Below the pieces are notes generated by a model. The model was not told the DNA's origin and did no database searches. It saw only the letters and a list, made by a program, of their open reading frames with translations. Of a stretch of 64,000 bases of DNA, positions 39,701-59,399 are shown piece by piece; within the stretch, counting starts at the first letter, position 1, and every line of letters starts with the position of its first letter. The position numbers and the translations under genes are program-made. The stretch comes from Candidatus Pacearchaeota archaeon (lineage in GTDB: Archaea; Nanobdellota; Nanobdellia; Pacearchaeales; GW2011-AR1). The DNA lies in contig JAIFVX010000001.1 in the NCBI GenBank assembly GCA_019659125.1, positions 438,097 through 502,096 on the forward strand. Direction: 5' to 3'.

Positions 39701-40184
39701 CTGCAGATCTGATAGGACCCGAATAGTAGGGTGCAAGATAATCCCCTCCATCGGCTGTTTTCTTAATTTTAAGTTGTATGAACCCCTCTATAGGGGAAGA
39801 GACATACCCTAGTGTCAAATATCCTATAGCAATCCGTATCCCTGCCTCAACTGCTTCGAGATGATCTTTAAACTTGCAGAAGGTCTCCTTTGCAACCTCT
39901 TCGGCAATTTTTAGCGAGACTGCAGGATCAAGATTTCCATATTCCTTTTCAAGCTCGAGAATTCTAGCAACAAGTCGAGGATCCATGACTTGAGGATAAA
40001 GAACTGAGACAAGTCCAACAACCCGCTCTGCTAAAGAAGTTGCAACGGGAATCTCAACGTCTGAAACAGGGTCAAATCCCTTCTTTCGTGCCTCGCGTGC
40101 TGCATCATAGCTCTTTTTCACTTCCTGCTCTAGATTTTGGAAATAGTCTTTAATATTCACGATTAAGTTCCTCCTCAATGCCAA
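36717..40184 (-). CDS. polC: DNA polymerase D large subunit (DP2), no intein apparent
   Basis: [73 protein letters not shown], zinc ribbons. Confidence 0.97.
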   Translation of the reverse strand: [1155 protein letters not shown]

Positions 40185-41709
40185 AGTCTAACAATTTTAA
40201 TTCCCTGGATTTCAAGTTGAGTACGGCGACCTTGCAAGGATCAGGTATATTTCCTATCTTTTCCTCGAAAGGCGTCTGCGATTGCCAACAGCTTCCGGTA
40301 ATGATAAGCACCCCATTATAATTCTCTATATCCATCCTATGAACCTCTCCCGTACACAAGACGTCGGGAACTTCGGAAATAACCAAGGGATCATATTCAA
40401 TGTTAGGGATATACACAACCGAAGAATGTGGTGGGGCAAGATGTCTTCTCTTAAGCATATGCCTTACTGCCTTTGCAGGAGTCCTATGGGCCTTCATCTC
40501 ACGTAACTCCTTGATCTCGTTGATGAAAGTGTGGATGCTTGCCCCATGATACATTAAAACCTTGAATTCCTTGTCTTTCTCAAGAAGTTTTATCAGTGCA
40601 GGATTAGTAACAAGCACAAGATTTTCAATGGCATATAAGGGGCCCGCATATCGTTTATCAATGAGTGGTTGCGGCTCTGCTACCCGCGCTGCATCGTGTT
40701 GGCCTGGACACATAAACATGGTAATGTGTTTAGGCACACGTGAGAGGTATGATGCAAGCAACGTATACTGCTCCTTCATACTTTTTAAGCTAAGGACGGA
40801 TTCCTGCCCTGGAAAAATTCCTACCCCGTCAACATTGTCTCCGACAAAGAAAATATACCTTAGCTTTTTCGCAACCTCATGATCACTTTCGACCCAGTCA
40901 ATGAATTGCGTGAAACTTTTTCCCAGATGACGGTCACTTCCACAATGAATATCTGATAGGAAGGCAACCGATATATCCTCATCAAATTTTGTCTTCTCTG
41001 GAATAAGTGCATCAGGAAAAAATATGTCTTGGATAAAGAGCATGTCCCTGCTCCCTGAAGCTCTTATCCCTACTACATCATCAAGTTGAAGCTCATCAGC
41101 TTTCTCAAATACATCCGCTCGGTCAGCCTTAACCAAAGTGCTTACTTTTCCTGTCAAGTCCTCAAAGACAATGATAAGGTTCTTGTTCTTTGTAACCCTT
41201 TTCTCACTGACCATGGCAATGATGCTTAAGCTTTGCCGCTCACTAGATATTTTATTGATAGAAATAAGATTTGTCAATTCAGGCCTTCTCATGAGGATTT
41301 TCTGCAGCTGCTGGTATCGTGACCTGAAATGCCCTGTAAAGTCGCCGACCTCAATTTTCTTGTCAGGTTTCGTGTCAGCATAAAATATCCTGTAATTTTG
41401 GCTGCGAGTTTCAGGAGCTTTAGGGACGACTGAGTTCTCCTTCCGTATCTCAAGACTTAGGCCGAATTTGATAAAGGTGTTCTCAAGAATATTCTTGTCA
41501 TTTCCAGGTAAATCTCTGACAAAGCTTTGTACATATTCATAATTCTTACTTAATACCGACTTTGTGATGACTTTTTGCCCCGATAGTCTTTCGACGCTCT
41601 CAAGGAAGGCTTTGGCGACACCTGCATCAATACTGCTAACCAAGTCGAATATTTCCTTTTCAAGAAGAAGCCCCCTATCTTTAATGACTTGTAGAAGTTC
41701 TTGATTCAT
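40150..41709 (-). CDS. polB: DNA polymerase D small subunit (DP1)
   Basis: Phosphoesterase motifs FLSDIHCGSDRHLGKSF, VGDNVDGVGIFPGQ, CPGQHDAAR, CTGEVHR; overlaps DP2 start. Confidence 0.95.
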   Translation of the reverse strand: MNQELLQVIKDRGLLLEKEIFDLVSSIDAGVAKAFLESVERLSGQKVITKSVLSKNYEYVQSFVRDLPGNDKNILENTFIKFGLSLEIRKENSVVPKAPETRSQNYRIFYADTKPDKKIEVGDFTGHFRSRYQQLQKILMRRPELTNLISINKISSERQSLSIIAMVSEKRVTKNKNLIIVFEDLTGKVSTLVKADRADVFEKADELQLDDVVGIRASGSRDMLFIQDIFFPDALIPEKTKFDEDISVAFLSDIHCGSDRHLGKSFTQFIDWVESDHEVAKKLRYIFFVGDNVDGVGIFPGQESVLSLKSMKEQYTLLASYLSRVPKHITMFMCPGQHDAARVAEPQPLIDKRYAGPLYAIENLVLVTNPALIKLLEKDKEFKVLMYHGASIHTFINEIKELREMKAHRTPAKAVRHMLKRRHLAPPHSSVVYIPNIEYDPLVISEVPDVLCTGEVHRMDIENYNGVLIITGSCWQSQTPFEEKIGNIPDPCKVAVLNLKSRELKLLDFGIEEELNREY

Positions 41710-42911
41710 CGTTGAAGTGAGTTGTCGAGTATTTCTTGTGCCTTCTCTTTTATCTCAGGAGCAAGCATGAGCTTTATTTCACGTGTTCTTCCCTGCCTGC
41801 CTTTACTGATGACTCTAGCATTAATAATGCCCAACATATCAAATTCGGCAAGTATGTCGGATACTCTCCGTTGTGTCAAGACCTCATTCTTACTGCTTTC
41901 ACATATTTCCTGATACGTATTGTAGACATCGCCGGTGAATATTCCTTCAGGATCATTTTTCCTCTCAAGTTTCATAATCGCGGCAAGGACAAGCTGGAAT
42001 TGCTTAGGTTCACTCTCTATAATATCAAGCATCTTGTCCTTTTCTATCTTTTGATTTGCTGCATCAATATGCTCAAGAAGTATTTTTTTGCTTCGTTCTC
42101 GTTCTGCAAGCTCGCCGGCGACCCTTAACAAATCAAGAGCTCTTCGTGCATCTCCGTGCTCTCGTGCAGCATAGGCAGCGCACTTAGCAATCACTCCCTC
42201 TTGAACAACTCCCTCCTTGAATGCCATATCTGATCGCTCACGTAATATATCTTGTAGTTGGAGAGCATTATAAGGAGAGAAAACAAGTTCCTCCTCACCA
42301 AGAGAACTTTTTACTCGTGGATCCAAATCATCCATAAATGTCAGGCTGTTACTGATGCCTATGATACTTATCTGTGCGTTCCGTAGTTCAGAATTCATCC
42401 GCGTTAGAGTATAAATGAAATTATCTGATATCTTTTTAACTGCCTGGTCGATTTCATCAAGGACAATGAGGATCATCTGTTTCTTACTATCTATGATATC
42501 AACGAATTTAGTGTAAACAGCATCAGTGGGAAGCCCTGTTGCAGGTACACTGCCGCCAAGTTCACTGATTAGTTCGGCAATGATCCTATACTCCGTATCT
42601 GCAACCTTCTTCATTTTGCAATTAATATATAGAAACTTTAAGTGATCCTTGTCTAATTCTCGCAGTTTAGCAAGAATTCTGTTCCCTACATGAAGGACAC
42701 TTAGTGTTTTCCCAGTGCCTGTCTTGCCGTAGACAAATAGATTGCTTACTCTCTCTCCACGTAAGCTAGGAGCAAGGATAGAAGCAACAGCTTGTACCTG
42801 TTCCTCACGATGGGGGATGGTCTCAGGAGTGTAATTTGATTGGAGAACAGTCTTATTTCTAAATAAGTTGTTGCTTACGAATGAGTCAAATATAGTATCG
42901 ATTCGGTCCAT
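41706..42911 (-). CDS. cdc6: Orc1/Cdc6 replication initiator
   Basis: AAA+ Walker A VYGKTGTGKTLSVLHV, VLDEIDQ, wHTH C-terminus TQRRVSDILAEFDMLGIINARVISKGRQGRTREIKL. Confidence 0.96.
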   Translation of the reverse strand: MDRIDTIFDSFVSNNLFRNKTVLQSNYTPETIPHREEQVQAVASILAPSLRGERVSNLFVYGKTGTGKTLSVLHVGNRILAKLRELDKDHLKFLYINCKMKKVADTEYRIIAELISELGGSVPATGLPTDAVYTKFVDIIDSKKQMILIVLDEIDQAVKKISDNFIYTLTRMNSELRNAQISIIGISNSLTFMDDLDPRVKSSLGEEELVFSPYNALQLQDILRERSDMAFKEGVVQEGVIAKCAAYAAREHGDARRALDLLRVAGELAERERSKKILLEHIDAANQKIEKDKMLDIIESEPKQFQLVLAAIMKLERKNDPEGIFTGDVYNTYQEICESSKNEVLTQRRVSDILAEFDMLGIINARVISKGRQGRTREIKLMLAPEIKEKAQEILDNSLQR

Positions 42912-47846: not shown

Positions 47847-48158
47847 ATGCCTAAGATATCTCAACAGAAGAAAGATAAGATTTCAGAGCAGATACTTCAT
47901 TACCTCTTTAGCATCACGCCAGAGATGAAGTTCACAGCCCAGATAGCCGATGAAATAGCTCGGGATGAGGAGTTCACCAAGAAGATCCTCAATGATCTCA
48001 TGCAGAAGAACCTTGTCATTCCTATAACTAAGAACAAAGATGGTACCCAGTACGTCCAACGACAGCGCTGGAGATTATCAAATGATGCGTTTGAGGCGTA
48101 TAAGAGGCAGCAACCATCACCTTCATCTATAAACGCCTTCGAAGACAACAATATTTAA
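47847..48158 (+). CDS. winged-helix-like DNA-binding protein
   Basis: KISEQILHYLFSITPEMKFTAQIADEIARDEEFTKKILNDLMQKNLVIPI. Confidence 0.6.
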   Translation: MPKISQQKKDKISEQILHYLFSITPEMKFTAQIADEIARDEEFTKKILNDLMQKNLVIPITKNKDGTQYVQRQRWRLSNDAFEAYKRQQPSPSSINAFEDNNI

Positions 48159-48181
48159 ATCATCATACGATAAAGAAATCT

Positions 48182-48853
48182 ATGGATCCCATTAAAGAAG
48201 CCTTTACAAAAGCAAAAGAAGACATTAACGAGCTGAGAATTCAAATAGAAATCCTTACCCAGACTGTGGAAGACATTAAACGAACTTTATACCAACAGAT
48301 CCAGGATACAAAGCAGACAACCCAACAGATAACTCCAACAATTAACACGAACCCAACAGATAACCTGCCTCTAGAAGGCGTAAAAACATCAAATATGAGC
48401 ACTTCCACAGGAAATAGGGGGGTTCCAACAGACAGACAGACAGACAGACAGACAGACCAACACATCCCTTCCAACACAAAAATCCTTTATAAAGCGGACA
48501 CAAACACACAGAATATCAATCATATAGAACGGGTTTCCCAGGTTCTTGAGTCCCTCGACGCTATAAAGAAAGAATTACGCGTAAAATTCAAGAGGTTAAC
48601 TCAGCAGGAAATGCTTATTTTCTCGACGATATACCAGCTTGAAGAGGAGAATGGCAGCGTCGACTATCCACAGGTAGCTGCCAAGTTAGGTCTTTCAGAA
48701 AGCTCGATCCGGGACTATGTCCAGAAGATCATCAAAAAGGGTATCCCTATCACAAAAACGAAGGAAAACAACAAGAAAATCATTCTTTCATTGCTTCCCG
48801 ATTTCAAGCGCCTAGCCTCACTTGAGACTATTTTATCCCTTCGAGAGCTGTAA
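48182..48853 (+). CDS. HTH regulator with repeat-containing linker
   Basis: C-terminal HTH RLTQQEMLIFSTIYQLEEENGSVDYPQVAAKLGLSESSIRDYVQKIIKKG; linker TDRQTDRQTDQ encoded by CAGA repeats. Confidence 0.65.
   Translation: MDPIKEAFTKAKEDINELRIQIEILTQTVEDIKRTLYQQIQDTKQTTQQITPTINTNPTDNLPLEGVKTSNMSTSTGNRGVPTDRQTDRQTDQHIPSNTKILYKADTNTQNINHIERVSQVLESLDAIKKELRVKFKRLTQQEMLIFSTIYQLEEENGSVDYPQVAAKLGLSESSIRDYVQKIIKKGIPITKTKENNKKIILSLLPDFKRLASLETILSLREL
48429..48456. repeat. (CAGA)7 tetranucleotide microsatellite inside coding sequence
   Basis: Direct reading: seven uninterrupted CAGA units. Confidence 0.95.
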
Positions 48854-49101
48854 ATATAACACTTGTTCGACTAACCGATTAACTTTCTTCAGGTTACCAC
48901 TATCTTTTTCTCACAGGGAAATAAGATATTAAACGAACTTTATCTCTCACTTTTTACACATAAACTGCCTAAAACGGGCTAGAGTTATCACTCACTCTCT
49001 TTCCTATTCCTCAGAAAAATTGAACACAATTTTCCCTCACTTTTTATCGTTTTTCGATCATTTTTCAACCAAAAATGAGTTTGCTAACTCTCACTTTTTC
49101 A

Positions 49102-49770
49102 TTATTGAGCATGATTTTCCTCATCTTTCTCGTAATTCTCTGATTTTGACTCATTAACACGAACTTTTCCCTTTTTCTTAACTCTCACTTTTGCGTATTT
49201 TGACAGTTTTTCACGTACTTCAGCTACCACAAACACTCTCTTTTTCCCATTTTTCTCTGTTATTTCCTCGATCAGCCCTGGTCGCTTCTGCCGAATGGCA
49301 TTTACCTGTCCTCGAATGGTAGATCTCTCTTTTCCCAAAAGGAGGGCTAAATCTTCATAACTAAGCTTCATATCGCTGTTCATAAGAGTGAACAAAACAA
49401 GTCGTTCGTTAGCACTTAATCCTTTTAGAATTTCGTAAAAACTGCCTGTTTGAACAGCTGTTTGAACACCATTATCAACATCATAAACAGCTGTTTGTTT
49501 GCCCAAAACCGGCAGTTTCTTAAACAGCTGTTTGTCTTTTTCGACATGAGTTGCCATTTCGAGAGCTTCACGCAGTCCAGAAATCTCATCATTTATCGAC
49601 GACAAATCCTTTTTTAGCTCATTTACGATGTCAAACAGCTGTTTATCTTGAGAATCAAGGTGTTTGACCCACTTTCCAACAGTGTCCATATCTTTTTTAA
49701 CTCCGGCAAAGCTTTCCTTTACTTCATGCTCGAATTTCTTGTCCCTTTTTTTGAAAAACCAGTCAAACAT
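49102..49770 (-). CDS. HTH regulator related to the 48182-48853 product
   Basis: LSANERLVLFTLMNSDMKLSYEDLALLLGKERSTIRGQVNAIRQKRPG; MFDWFFKK at 49770 lies about 28 nt downstream of TATTTAAATA. The track extends the ORF to 49911 with an added TM segment. Confidence 0.6.
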   Translation of the reverse strand: MFDWFFKKRDKKFEHEVKESFAGVKKDMDTVGKWVKHLDSQDKQLFDIVNELKKDLSSINDEISGLREALEMATHVEKDKQLFKKLPVLGKQTAVYDVDNGVQTAVQTGSFYEILKGLSANERLVLFTLMNSDMKLSYEDLALLLGKERSTIRGQVNAIRQKRPGLIEEITEKNGKKRVFVVAEVREKLSKYAKVRVKKKGKVRVNESKSENYEKDEENHAQ

Positions 49771-49943
49771 TAAAGTATACCAACAGTTGTAGTATTTAAA
49801 TATTGCCATTTTAGAGGCTATAAAGGCAAGTGCCCCCAAGTATCCCAAGACAAAAGCAAACACCAACACAAACAGCAAAAACACACTTAAACACCTAAAA
49901 AGTGAAAACAAACAGCTGTTTAAACAGCCTCAAACACCTGTTT
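49453..49943. repeat. repeated palindrome AAACAGCTGTTT (four perfect 12-mers, one 10-bp core copy, one near-match)
   Basis: Perfect 12-mers at 49485, 49522, 49633, 49910; core AACAGCTGTT at 49453; AAACACCTGTTT at 49932. Confidence 0.85.
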
Positions 49944-53286: not shown

Positions 53287-53339
53287 CCGTACTCTCTAAT
53301 CATATAAATATTTATAAACTCTACGGCCCACGAGATACG

Positions 53340-53753
53340 ATGCCTAACATAAAAGAGAGGTTCATCGTTGATGAGTCGATATTTAACAGTCAGCGCGCCG
53401 AGCAATTGGCGGAAATGCTATTGGATCTAAACATTAGTACGGTAACAAAGGAAGGAAATGTATTGCTGCACATGAACTCAATCACAAATATTGATAAAAT
53501 CGGACTTGTGATAATCTCTCGTTTTATAGCGAATCATCTAGAGTCCACTATCCCCGGAGAAGTAACTCTCTCAGAAATAACGTCTTCAACTTCTCTTACT
53601 CCAGATATAGTAAGTGCTCGTGCCGCAGAGCTCGTAGATAGAAGAATCATCCGCCGCGTAAAGAATGGATCATATATTGCCGTTCCATCCAGTCTTGAGA
53701 CATTTATTAAGAAACTCGCATCGAGGTATACTTTCAACAATGGTAAGTCTTAA
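53340..53753 (+). CDS. helical/wHTH-like protein, module gene 1
   Basis: NIKERFIVDESIF...NIDKIGLVIISRFIANHLESTIPGEVTLSEITSSTSLTPDIVSARAAELVDRRIIRRVKNGSYIAVP. Confidence 0.6.
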   Translation: MPNIKERFIVDESIFNSQRAEQLAEMLLDLNISTVTKEGNVLLHMNSITNIDKIGLVIISRFIANHLESTIPGEVTLSEITSSTSLTPDIVSARAAELVDRRIIRRVKNGSYIAVPSSLETFIKKLASRYTFNNGKS

Positions 53754-54144
53754 AGATATTAAAGGCACGTTCATAGTAGAAGGAGAGAATTTTCAAGAGC
53801 AAGAACTTGTGCGCCTTGTTGAGATTGTTCGTGAAACCTGCGTCCTCGACGGAAAGGGAACTGTTAAGTTTCTTAAGAATTTAAGCGAGAAAGACAAGAT
53901 AAAATATTGTTTGGCAGCTAGATTTCTAGCTAATAAAATTGATTCAAATATCTCAAAAGAAGTTTCTCGGCAAGAACTTGAAACCTTATTGCGTACGCAA
54001 CCAAAACAGGTTAGTGCTAGAATATCAGATTGCAGAAAAGAAGGATTATTACAGGACGCGAGCGAGGACATGTTCCAAGTATCACCCCACGTCCTTCAAA
54101 ACTTATTGAATGATAATGGAATCGATGCTAATAAAGTACCCTGA
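53740..54144 (+). CDS. helical/wHTH-like protein, module gene 2 (paralogue of gene 1)
   Basis: ATG at 53740 gives MVSLKDIKGTFIVEGENF; EKDKIKYCLAARFLANKIDSNISKEVSRQELETLLRTQPKQVSARISDCRKEGLLQ aligns with gene 1. Confidence 0.6.
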   Translation: MVSLKDIKGTFIVEGENFQEQELVRLVEIVRETCVLDGKGTVKFLKNLSEKDKIKYCLAARFLANKIDSNISKEVSRQELETLLRTQPKQVSARISDCRKEGLLQDASEDMFQVSPHVLQNLLNDNGIDANKVP

Positions 54145-54880
54145 AGAGGTATCTAGCTTACTTCATAAGTACTATGAGCGTATGCTACTAGATGATAGAG
54201 TATCGGATACGGATGCTATACTGGTATCGCTTCATATCTTAGAGTATTCTCAAGATAAATCTGGGGCGACCTACCCAGATTGTCGAGATGTGTTTATCTC
54301 TTTGGGGAGAAAGGAAGAGTCTTATAGGAAAAGGATGCATGAGGCAAAAGCCGATAATTTGATTTATCAAGATGATCACGGGATTTTTTTCTTGATTAAG
54401 GGCCTAAAACGCTTACAGGATCTTCTCGGCAAAACTAGGAAGTCCCCAGTGCATATAATAAAAGCGGGCAAGAACTTTAGCGGGATCAAGCTTTTTGAGG
54501 AATTTCTAACTGTCGAATTTGAGGGAGAAGAAGTCTTGATATGTGACGCTCATGTAAGCCAAGAGACTCTTTTTCCTCTGACAGCTCTTGAAGGGAAGAT
54601 AAAGCGTATAAAAATTCTAACATCGAATATATATGATAAAGATAAATTCGATGGGTATATCAAGAAAATACAGAAAGAGCTGAAAATCGAGGTCGAAGTG
54701 CGTACTAGTAATAAGATTCATGAGAGATATATGTTGAGCGGCGACTCATGCTGGTCGATTGGTGCAAGCATCAAGGATTTGGGAAATAAAGATACGGTAA
54801 TAAAAGAAATTAATGAAGTAATGACTTCTATGCGAGAGTTATTCCTAGAAAGATGGAACGAAGTGGAAAAGAAAGAGTAG
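54110..54880 (+). CDS. wHTH-like plus PLD-like protein, module gene 3
   Basis: N-terminal HTH-like region; C-terminal KIHERYMLSGDSCWSIGASIKDLGNKDTVI resembles PLD-like HxR-type motif proteins. Start could also be 54116 or 54125. Confidence 0.6.
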   Translation: MIMESMLIKYPEEVSSLLHKYYERMLLDDRVSDTDAILVSLHILEYSQDKSGATYPDCRDVFISLGRKEESYRKRMHEAKADNLIYQDDHGIFFLIKGLKRLQDLLGKTRKSPVHIIKAGKNFSGIKLFEEFLTVEFEGEEVLICDAHVSQETLFPLTALEGKIKRIKILTSNIYDKDKFDGYIKKIQKELKIEVEVRTSNKIHERYMLSGDSCWSIGASIKDLGNKDTVIKEINEVMTSMRELFLERWNEVEKKE

Positions 54881-59327: not shown

Positions 59328-59399
59328 GCCTCTATAGCTCAGTGGTAGAGTACAAGTTTCGTAAACTTGGGGTCCCGGGTTCAATCCCCGGTAGAGGCT
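59328..59399 (+). tRNA. tRNA-Thr (anticodon CGT)
   Basis: Cloverleaf: GCCTCTA/TAGAGGC acceptor, CAAGT-TTCGTAA-ACTTG anticodon arm, CCGGG-TTCAATC-CCCGG T arm; no CCA encoded, no intron. Confidence 0.93.

Follow-up and report, generated by a model that had tools for sequence, protein, structure and literature searches.

A three-gene operon in the 64,000-nucleotide stretch of archaeal DNA analyzed here (the window) probably represents a horizontally mobile archaeal conflict module of the toxin-antitoxin (TA) or abortive-infection type; we put the probability of this reading at about 0.6. It draws on gene order, gene overlaps, homology, fold predictions, exchange of the effector, a patchy cross-phylum distribution, and the defense and integrase genes in the neighborhood.

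Operon layout and the small winged-helix proteins

The operon resides in the 0.81 Mb genome (five contigs) of a DPANN archaeon. Its three overlapping open reading frames (ORFs) all lie on the plus strand, as given in the preliminary description. Gene 1 (53340..53753, 137 aa) and gene 2 (53740..54144, 134 aa) encode small winged-helix (wHTH) proteins, referred to here as type A, and overlap by 14 bp. Gene 3 (54110..54880, 256 aa), the terminal effector candidate, overlaps gene 2 by 35 bp and fuses a wHTH (residues ~30-110, 54197..54439), delimited by the secondary structure of a high-pLDDT AlphaFold2 (AF2) model, to a phospholipase D (PLD)-like domain with an H-x-R motif (residues ~113-252, 54446..54865). 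For gene 2, the homologous start giving 134 aa was adopted, and the mechanical ORF begins at 53665; the exact start of gene 3 is uncertain (54110, 54116, or 54125).

A TATA-box-like, AT-rich 14-bp palindrome, TATAAATATTTATA (53303..53316, plus strand; palindrome test p = 0.013), is positioned 24-37 bp 5' of the gene 1 ATG and is the sole evident TATA-like element in the operon. This placement fits a leaderless archaeal operon, of which TATAAATATTTATA is, judged by its sequence, probably the single promoter. Most other loci of the module show A/T-rich, TATA-like sequences at ~-25 to -35. The palindrome, considered as an operator candidate, is not kept at these loci.

The GC content of the operon (~0.39) does not differ from that of its flanks. 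When a window gene neighboring the operon was used as query in a synteny comparison, it had no match in G001, the sole congener, and the host's family includes another genome with a gene-3 homolog (G393). At 40150-42911, ~10 kb from the module, lie ORFs that by eye look like Cdc6/Orc1 and the small subunit of DNA polymerase II, and a tRNA-Thr (CGT) gene lies outside the module, ~4.4 kb downstream (59328-59399). Further, a three-gene cluster encoding a small HTH protein, a coiled-coil protein with a DRQTDRQTD repeat, and a second HTH/coiled-coil protein occurs both in the window (47847-49911) and at an unclassified archaeal locus (L060:8195-10478). In both it is ~3-6 kb from the PLD module, which is flipped relative to the cluster, and the site is a possible integration hotspot near the origin.

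Genes 1 and 2 had been described as paralogs, and this is borne out by a single BLASTP comparison (24% identity over 123 aa, E = 5e-11) and by the finding that each is the other's sole significant match within the window (E ~1e-8). For each, homologs in other genomes are more similar than the sister gene; those of gene 1 include L054c (32%, 1e-22), L147 (33%, 4e-22), and L111 (33%, 7e-18). The AF2 model of gene 1 is a wHTH (pLDDT 86, pTM 0.80) with structural matches to Sso10a, the pNOB8 centromere-binding protein, and MarR/IclR-like proteins, all at E > 0.001. Both small proteins would be expected to bind DNA. In Pfam and NCBIfam, genes 1 and 2 had no match above cut-off, and NCBIfam had no usable family for any of the three genes.

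The small wHTH proteins of this and other loci fall into three types. Type A comprises genes 1 and 2 and is present in three copies at the Heimdallarchaeota locus L054; type B consists of an N-terminal coiled-coil "DHEKRI" segment and a wHTH; type C is homologous to type A (HHalign 96.8%). Profile comparisons detected no homology between types A and B, or between the type-B wHTH and the N-terminus of gene 3. The N-terminal region of gene 3 had been likened to genes 1 and 2: the general wHTH fold is indeed common to them, but common descent is not what these comparisons indicate.

A PLD-like domain with an H-x-R motif in gene 3

The AF2 model of gene 3 consists of an N-terminal wHTH and a single C-terminal PLD-like unit (pLDDT 85.7, pTM 0.70). 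Foldseek matches it to TrmBL2 (3.7e-7, top), MITD1 (2ymb, 2.9e-6), mouse Zucchini/PLD6 (2.7e-5), the BfiI nuclease (4.7e-3), polyphosphate kinase (PPK), and Tdp1. At the sequence level, two PADLOC PDC-S05 profiles match residues 99-239, that is, the C-terminal half only (1.6e-12 and 1.5e-11), and the model NsnC matches more weakly. Pfam MIT_C is found in four of eight gene-3 homologs (best E 0.001), and in the PDB the gene-3 family profile finds its best sequence match in MITD1 (E 0.005), which has the same iHDR. Searches with gene 3 itself gave no match in Pfam, TrmB included, or in PHROGs; in the PDB, the single sequence likewise had no match and a profile search with full-length gene 3 returned chance matches only.

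The PLD-like domain carries the motif H-[DE]-R-x(~10)-G-x-[SG]-x-K-D. In gene 3, the HKD-like active-site region reads H204-E-R206 ... G218-A-S220-I-K-D-L-G-N-K-D (54719..54793, plus strand) with Arg in place of Lys. Compared with the HKD signature HxKxxxxD(x)nGSxN, every member has Arg instead of Lys, the gene-3 family lacks the Asp at +7, and G-x-S is kept. Alignment across the gene-3 family, array members, and ORF6N/RhuM-type proteins from bacteria and archaea shows that H, R (at H+2), G, and K never vary. The earlier assignment of gene 3 as PLD-like holds for the fold, supported by AF2, Foldseek, MIT_C, and PDC-S05; the motif is H-[DE]-R...G-x-S in place of HKD. Given the Lys-to-Arg change and the missing Asp, the domain may be non-catalytic, which the TrmBL2 and MITD1 matches would permit; the BrxL-HKD proteins of BREX have the same Lys-to-Arg change and are predicted to be likely active (PMC12839542).

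Among the closest known systems is PDC-S05, a phage-defense candidate of PADLOC that is common in the same archaeal phylum: gene 3 shares with it a homologous HDR-type PLD-like C-terminal domain and the H-[DE]-R...G-x-S-x-K-D motif. In contrast, PDC-S05 consists of one gene whose product begins with a DNA-binding domain of ORF6N/RhuM type, whereas gene 3 has a wHTH N-terminus and is the last gene of its operon, in a module with at least two wHTH genes upstream. HDR-PLD domains frequently form the C-terminal part of ORF6N/RhuM-type proteins, both in archaea (L010, L009, L015-L040) and on Bacteroides and Butyrivibrio plasmids.

Conservation, effector exchange, and genomic neighborhood

The operon had been placed in an orphan-gene setting. 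This is incorrect, since homologs occur in several archaeal phyla. Full-length gene-3 homologs, defined by E <= 1e-80 in genome profile searches or 40-54% identity, are present in Heimdallarchaeota (L054), Pacearchaeota (L055), Woesearchaeota (L056, L058), Thaumarchaeota (L057), and unclassified archaea (L059, L060), with identities of 42-54% in the scan and 40-54% by alignment, and also in the Thermoproteota group (L111); a fragment is found in Archaeoglobaceae (L061). Between one and three small wHTH genes, of type A, B, or C, adjoin the PLD gene in all nine intact loci, the window included, so that the association of small wHTH genes with a gene-3 homolog recurs in other genomes. The last small wHTH gene overlaps the PLD gene by 20-35 bp in six loci (the window, L055, L056, L057, L058, and L059) and by 11 bp in L060. 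Because this overlap is kept, translational coupling, as originally proposed for the window operon, is itself conserved. The exception is L111, where the small wHTH genes are divergent from the PLD gene.

More distant PLD genes either close a wHTH array or lie within one at L044, L045, L051, L085, L113, L115, and, in an Asgard genome, L142/L153. Only the PLD gene led to L111 and L115, and both have type-A neighbors (3.6e-27 and 6.1e-26). Type A is rare, matching 18 of 279 genomes of the phylum with about one copy each; the adjacency at these two loci is therefore not due to chance. HDR-PLD genes also occur without wHTH arrays (L112, L114, and Asgard L138-L140). Conversely, two pairs of type-A and type-C genes without a recognized effector were observed, at L052:3596-4419 and at L096:3618-3989, the type-A gene of the latter lying just upstream at G314:C17:8505-8900. 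These pairs may have an effector of unrecognized type or be what is left of a regulatory unit.

The partner wHTH proteins are combined with different terminal effectors. The type-B profile matches six of the 279 phylum genomes, each time in a wHTH operon, and three of these operons end in a PLD protein (G158, G268, G269). The other three end differently. In G245, the terminal protein is a wHTH joined to a Hypoth_Ymh HEPN domain (Pfam 3.7e-32; PADLOC Aga_HEPN 1.7e-16 and PD-Lambda-3_B 2e-13) with the HEPN R-x4-H motif RNPKGH. In G271, a wHTH is joined to an unassigned helical domain (PADLOC PD-Lambda-5_A 4.6e-4), and the terminal protein of G053 is helical, contains RNDRGVSH, and has its wHTH at the C-terminus. 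For the G271 and G053 effectors, a type-C search turned up one further example each, in G103 (67% identity to that of G271) and G052 (45% identity to that of G053). The effector classes L083/L094 and L086/L095 are tentatively HEPN-like. Moreover, the wHTHs at the N-termini of the Ymh-HEPN effector at L084 and the PLD effector at L051 are 48% identical (E = 4e-17), which amounts to a direct swap between PLD and HEPN domains.

The type-A search extends this pattern to a further toxin. In two genomes, the gene for a type-A-wHTH fusion, which ranks at or near the top in similarity to genes 1 and 2, lies directly 5' of a YoeB/RelE-like toxin gene. The same wHTH partner families are found with PLD, Ymh-HEPN, YoeB-like, and HEPN-like domains, and co-directional, overlapping genes for putative DNA-binding partners precede the effector everywhere except at the divergent L111, two features of TA and abortive-infection systems. 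Separately, a YoeB-like toxin gene is paired with a divergent or adjacent small gene ("PRLDTVL...KHLFW") at L147:3160-4340, L121:710-1908, and L051:6600-7225. Such a pair turns up next to type-A wHTH genes as well as next to a PLD array, and likely constitutes an unannotated archaeal toxin-antitoxin family.

Effector exchange also bears on the main rival to a conflict system, in which gene 3 would be a TrmB/TrmBL2-like transcription or chromatin regulator, its PLD-like domain a non-catalytic ligand-sensing or dimerization unit, and genes 1 and 2 accessory regulators. TrmBL2, the top structural match, has the same wHTH plus PLD-like architecture, wHTHs occur in every part of the module, and the Lys-to-Arg change would suit such a role. 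However, exchange of the effector with HEPN and a YoeB/RelE-like toxin is unexpected for a metabolic regulator and forms the main argument against it, and the same applies to the defense and mobile-element neighbors described below. Gene 3 further differs from TrmB proteins in its H-x-R motif and multi-gene operon, no Pfam TrmB model matches it or any of eight family members at E <= 1, and H, R, and G stay invariant even as far as bacterial ORF6N/RhuM proteins, which is unusual for a degenerate ligand pocket. We consider a regulatory role of this kind unlikely.

Several loci are embedded among defense and mobile-element genes, some of which were identified by eye only. L061 adjoins AbiEi/AbiEii (1e-80 and 8e-99), and an AbiE pair also lies beside L149; two type II methyltransferases neighbor L056, a Type III-like helicase neighbors L045, and an AAA_5 (McrB-like) ATPase is near L111. 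At L114, a Type IIG R-M gene adjoins the PLD gene without an array. In the Asgard locus L153, the array is followed a few genes on by TIR-like, PycTM (8e-21), and PycC Pycsar cyclase (8e-39) genes. The segment L153:669-5999 is one directional run of the wHTH-PLD array, more wHTH genes, a TIR/deoxyribosyltransferase-like protein, PycTM, and the Pycsar cyclase, and possibly represents a composite defense island. Integrases, recombinases, or transposases are found at L055, L056, L057, L085, and L113, comprising tyrosine integrases beside L056, L057, L085, and L113, a serine recombinase at L057, and a transposase at L055. Beside the window copy itself, there is no recognized defense gene. The preliminary description had proposed a sensor/effector system in defense, TA, or signaling; effector swapping and these neighborhoods lend good support to a conflict role, that is, defense or TA.

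The mobile-element genes could instead indicate a maintenance (addiction) or element-control cassette of integrated plasmids or viruses that does not serve host defense. The patchy distribution across phyla at 40-54% identity agrees with such a cassette, as does the type-A wHTH 5' of the RelE-like toxin, which resembles antitoxin-toxin order. Yet gene-3 and type-B profile scans of 2.9 million viral contigs and a search of a phage collection recovered no relative, and several copies of the module adjoin bona fide defense genes. Plasmids yielded only weak, partial matches to the C-terminal domain, in ORF6N/RhuM proteins, and, with the PLD domain of a gene-3 relative as query, only one weak, partial match to a Haloarcula protein. 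Such a cassette is quite improbable in our estimation. We regard as very unlikely a membrane-targeted module in which the PLD-like domain would bind membranes or phospholipids as an MIT_C type, as in eukaryotic MITD1: the MIT_C, MITD1, and 2ymb matches point in this direction, but the domain is always fused to a wHTH here and to ORF6N/RhuM DNA-binding-type domains in bacteria, and no transmembrane or ESCRT-type partner genes were seen.

Relation to known systems and proposed mode of action

No PADLOC system describes the whole conflict module, and no description of such wHTH arrays was found in the literature searched, which excluded most subscription journals. Its organization partly resembles several known systems. 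The polymorphic abortive-infection proteins with AbiJ-NTD combine one N-terminal module with interchangeable effectors, including Ymh, DUF4145 HEPN, and HKD/PLD-fold nucleases (Anantharaman et al. 2013; PMC3710099), which is almost the same effector set as the PLD, Ymh, and other HEPN domains found here. AbiJ-NTDs are, however, mostly helical and part of fused proteins, whereas the present arrays consist of separate small wHTH proteins and are archaeal. With type II TA systems (RelE/YoeB), the module shares co-translated upstream proteins predicted to bind DNA and, in two genomes, a type-A wHTH before a YoeB-like toxin; in contrast, it has several wHTH proteins instead of one antitoxin, and the candidate effector itself carries a wHTH. 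BrxL-HKD of BREX likewise places a PLD-fold domain with the Lys-to-Arg change in a defense context (PMC12839542), but LonP/BrxL, PglX, PglZ, and other BREX components are absent from the window module. Similarly, AbiEii, the nucleotidyltransferase partner in AbiE (type IV TA), is absent from genes 1-3, which have only a weak wHTH similarity to AbiEi (0.0017).

In the arrangement that we propose, between one and five small wHTH proteins (genes 1 and 2 in the window) are co-translated with the effector encoded last in the operon and probably form a complex with it. This effector joins a wHTH to a toxin-like domain that can be exchanged and is, in gene 3, the PLD-like one. The wHTH proteins would bind DNA and either keep the effector inactive or recruit it. 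Upon invasion, foreign DNA or the loss of a labile DNA-bound complex could then lead to release or assembly of the effector. The effector, through its PLD fold, HEPN, or RelE domain, would attack nucleic acid, whereby the cell is halted or the invader destroyed. In this scheme, we infer DNA binding, complex formation, the trigger, and toxicity. For gene 3, the chemistry might be phosphodiester cleavage at a dimeric His/Arg site, which is the least certain step.

The general principle of one partner with exchangeable effectors is already known; there is a real chance that a new archaeal system is at hand here. We raise more tentatively the broader possibility of an uncatalogued, archaea-centered immune family that would have spread horizontally among DPANN, Asgard, Thermoproteota, and Euryarchaeota. 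Its wHTH arrays might act as modular DNA sensors or antitoxins licensing interchangeable HDR-PLD, HEPN, and RelE effectors, and HDR-PLD, shared with eukaryotic MITD1, might be a new class of effector enzyme.

Antiviral systems of archaea, above all of DPANN, are poorly known. In a survey of 7747 archaeal genomes, DPANN were poor in R-M and CRISPR-Cas and enriched in AbiE, SoFic, and uncharacterized candidates (PMC12988326). The module supplies a context for the HDR-PLD domain, for which both the role in PDC-S05 and the link to eukaryotic MIT_C have so far been unexplained. If our reading is true, a multi-gene module with exchangeable effectors that extends from DPANN to Asgard would provide a new entry point to archaeal defense, one that is compact and easy to test.
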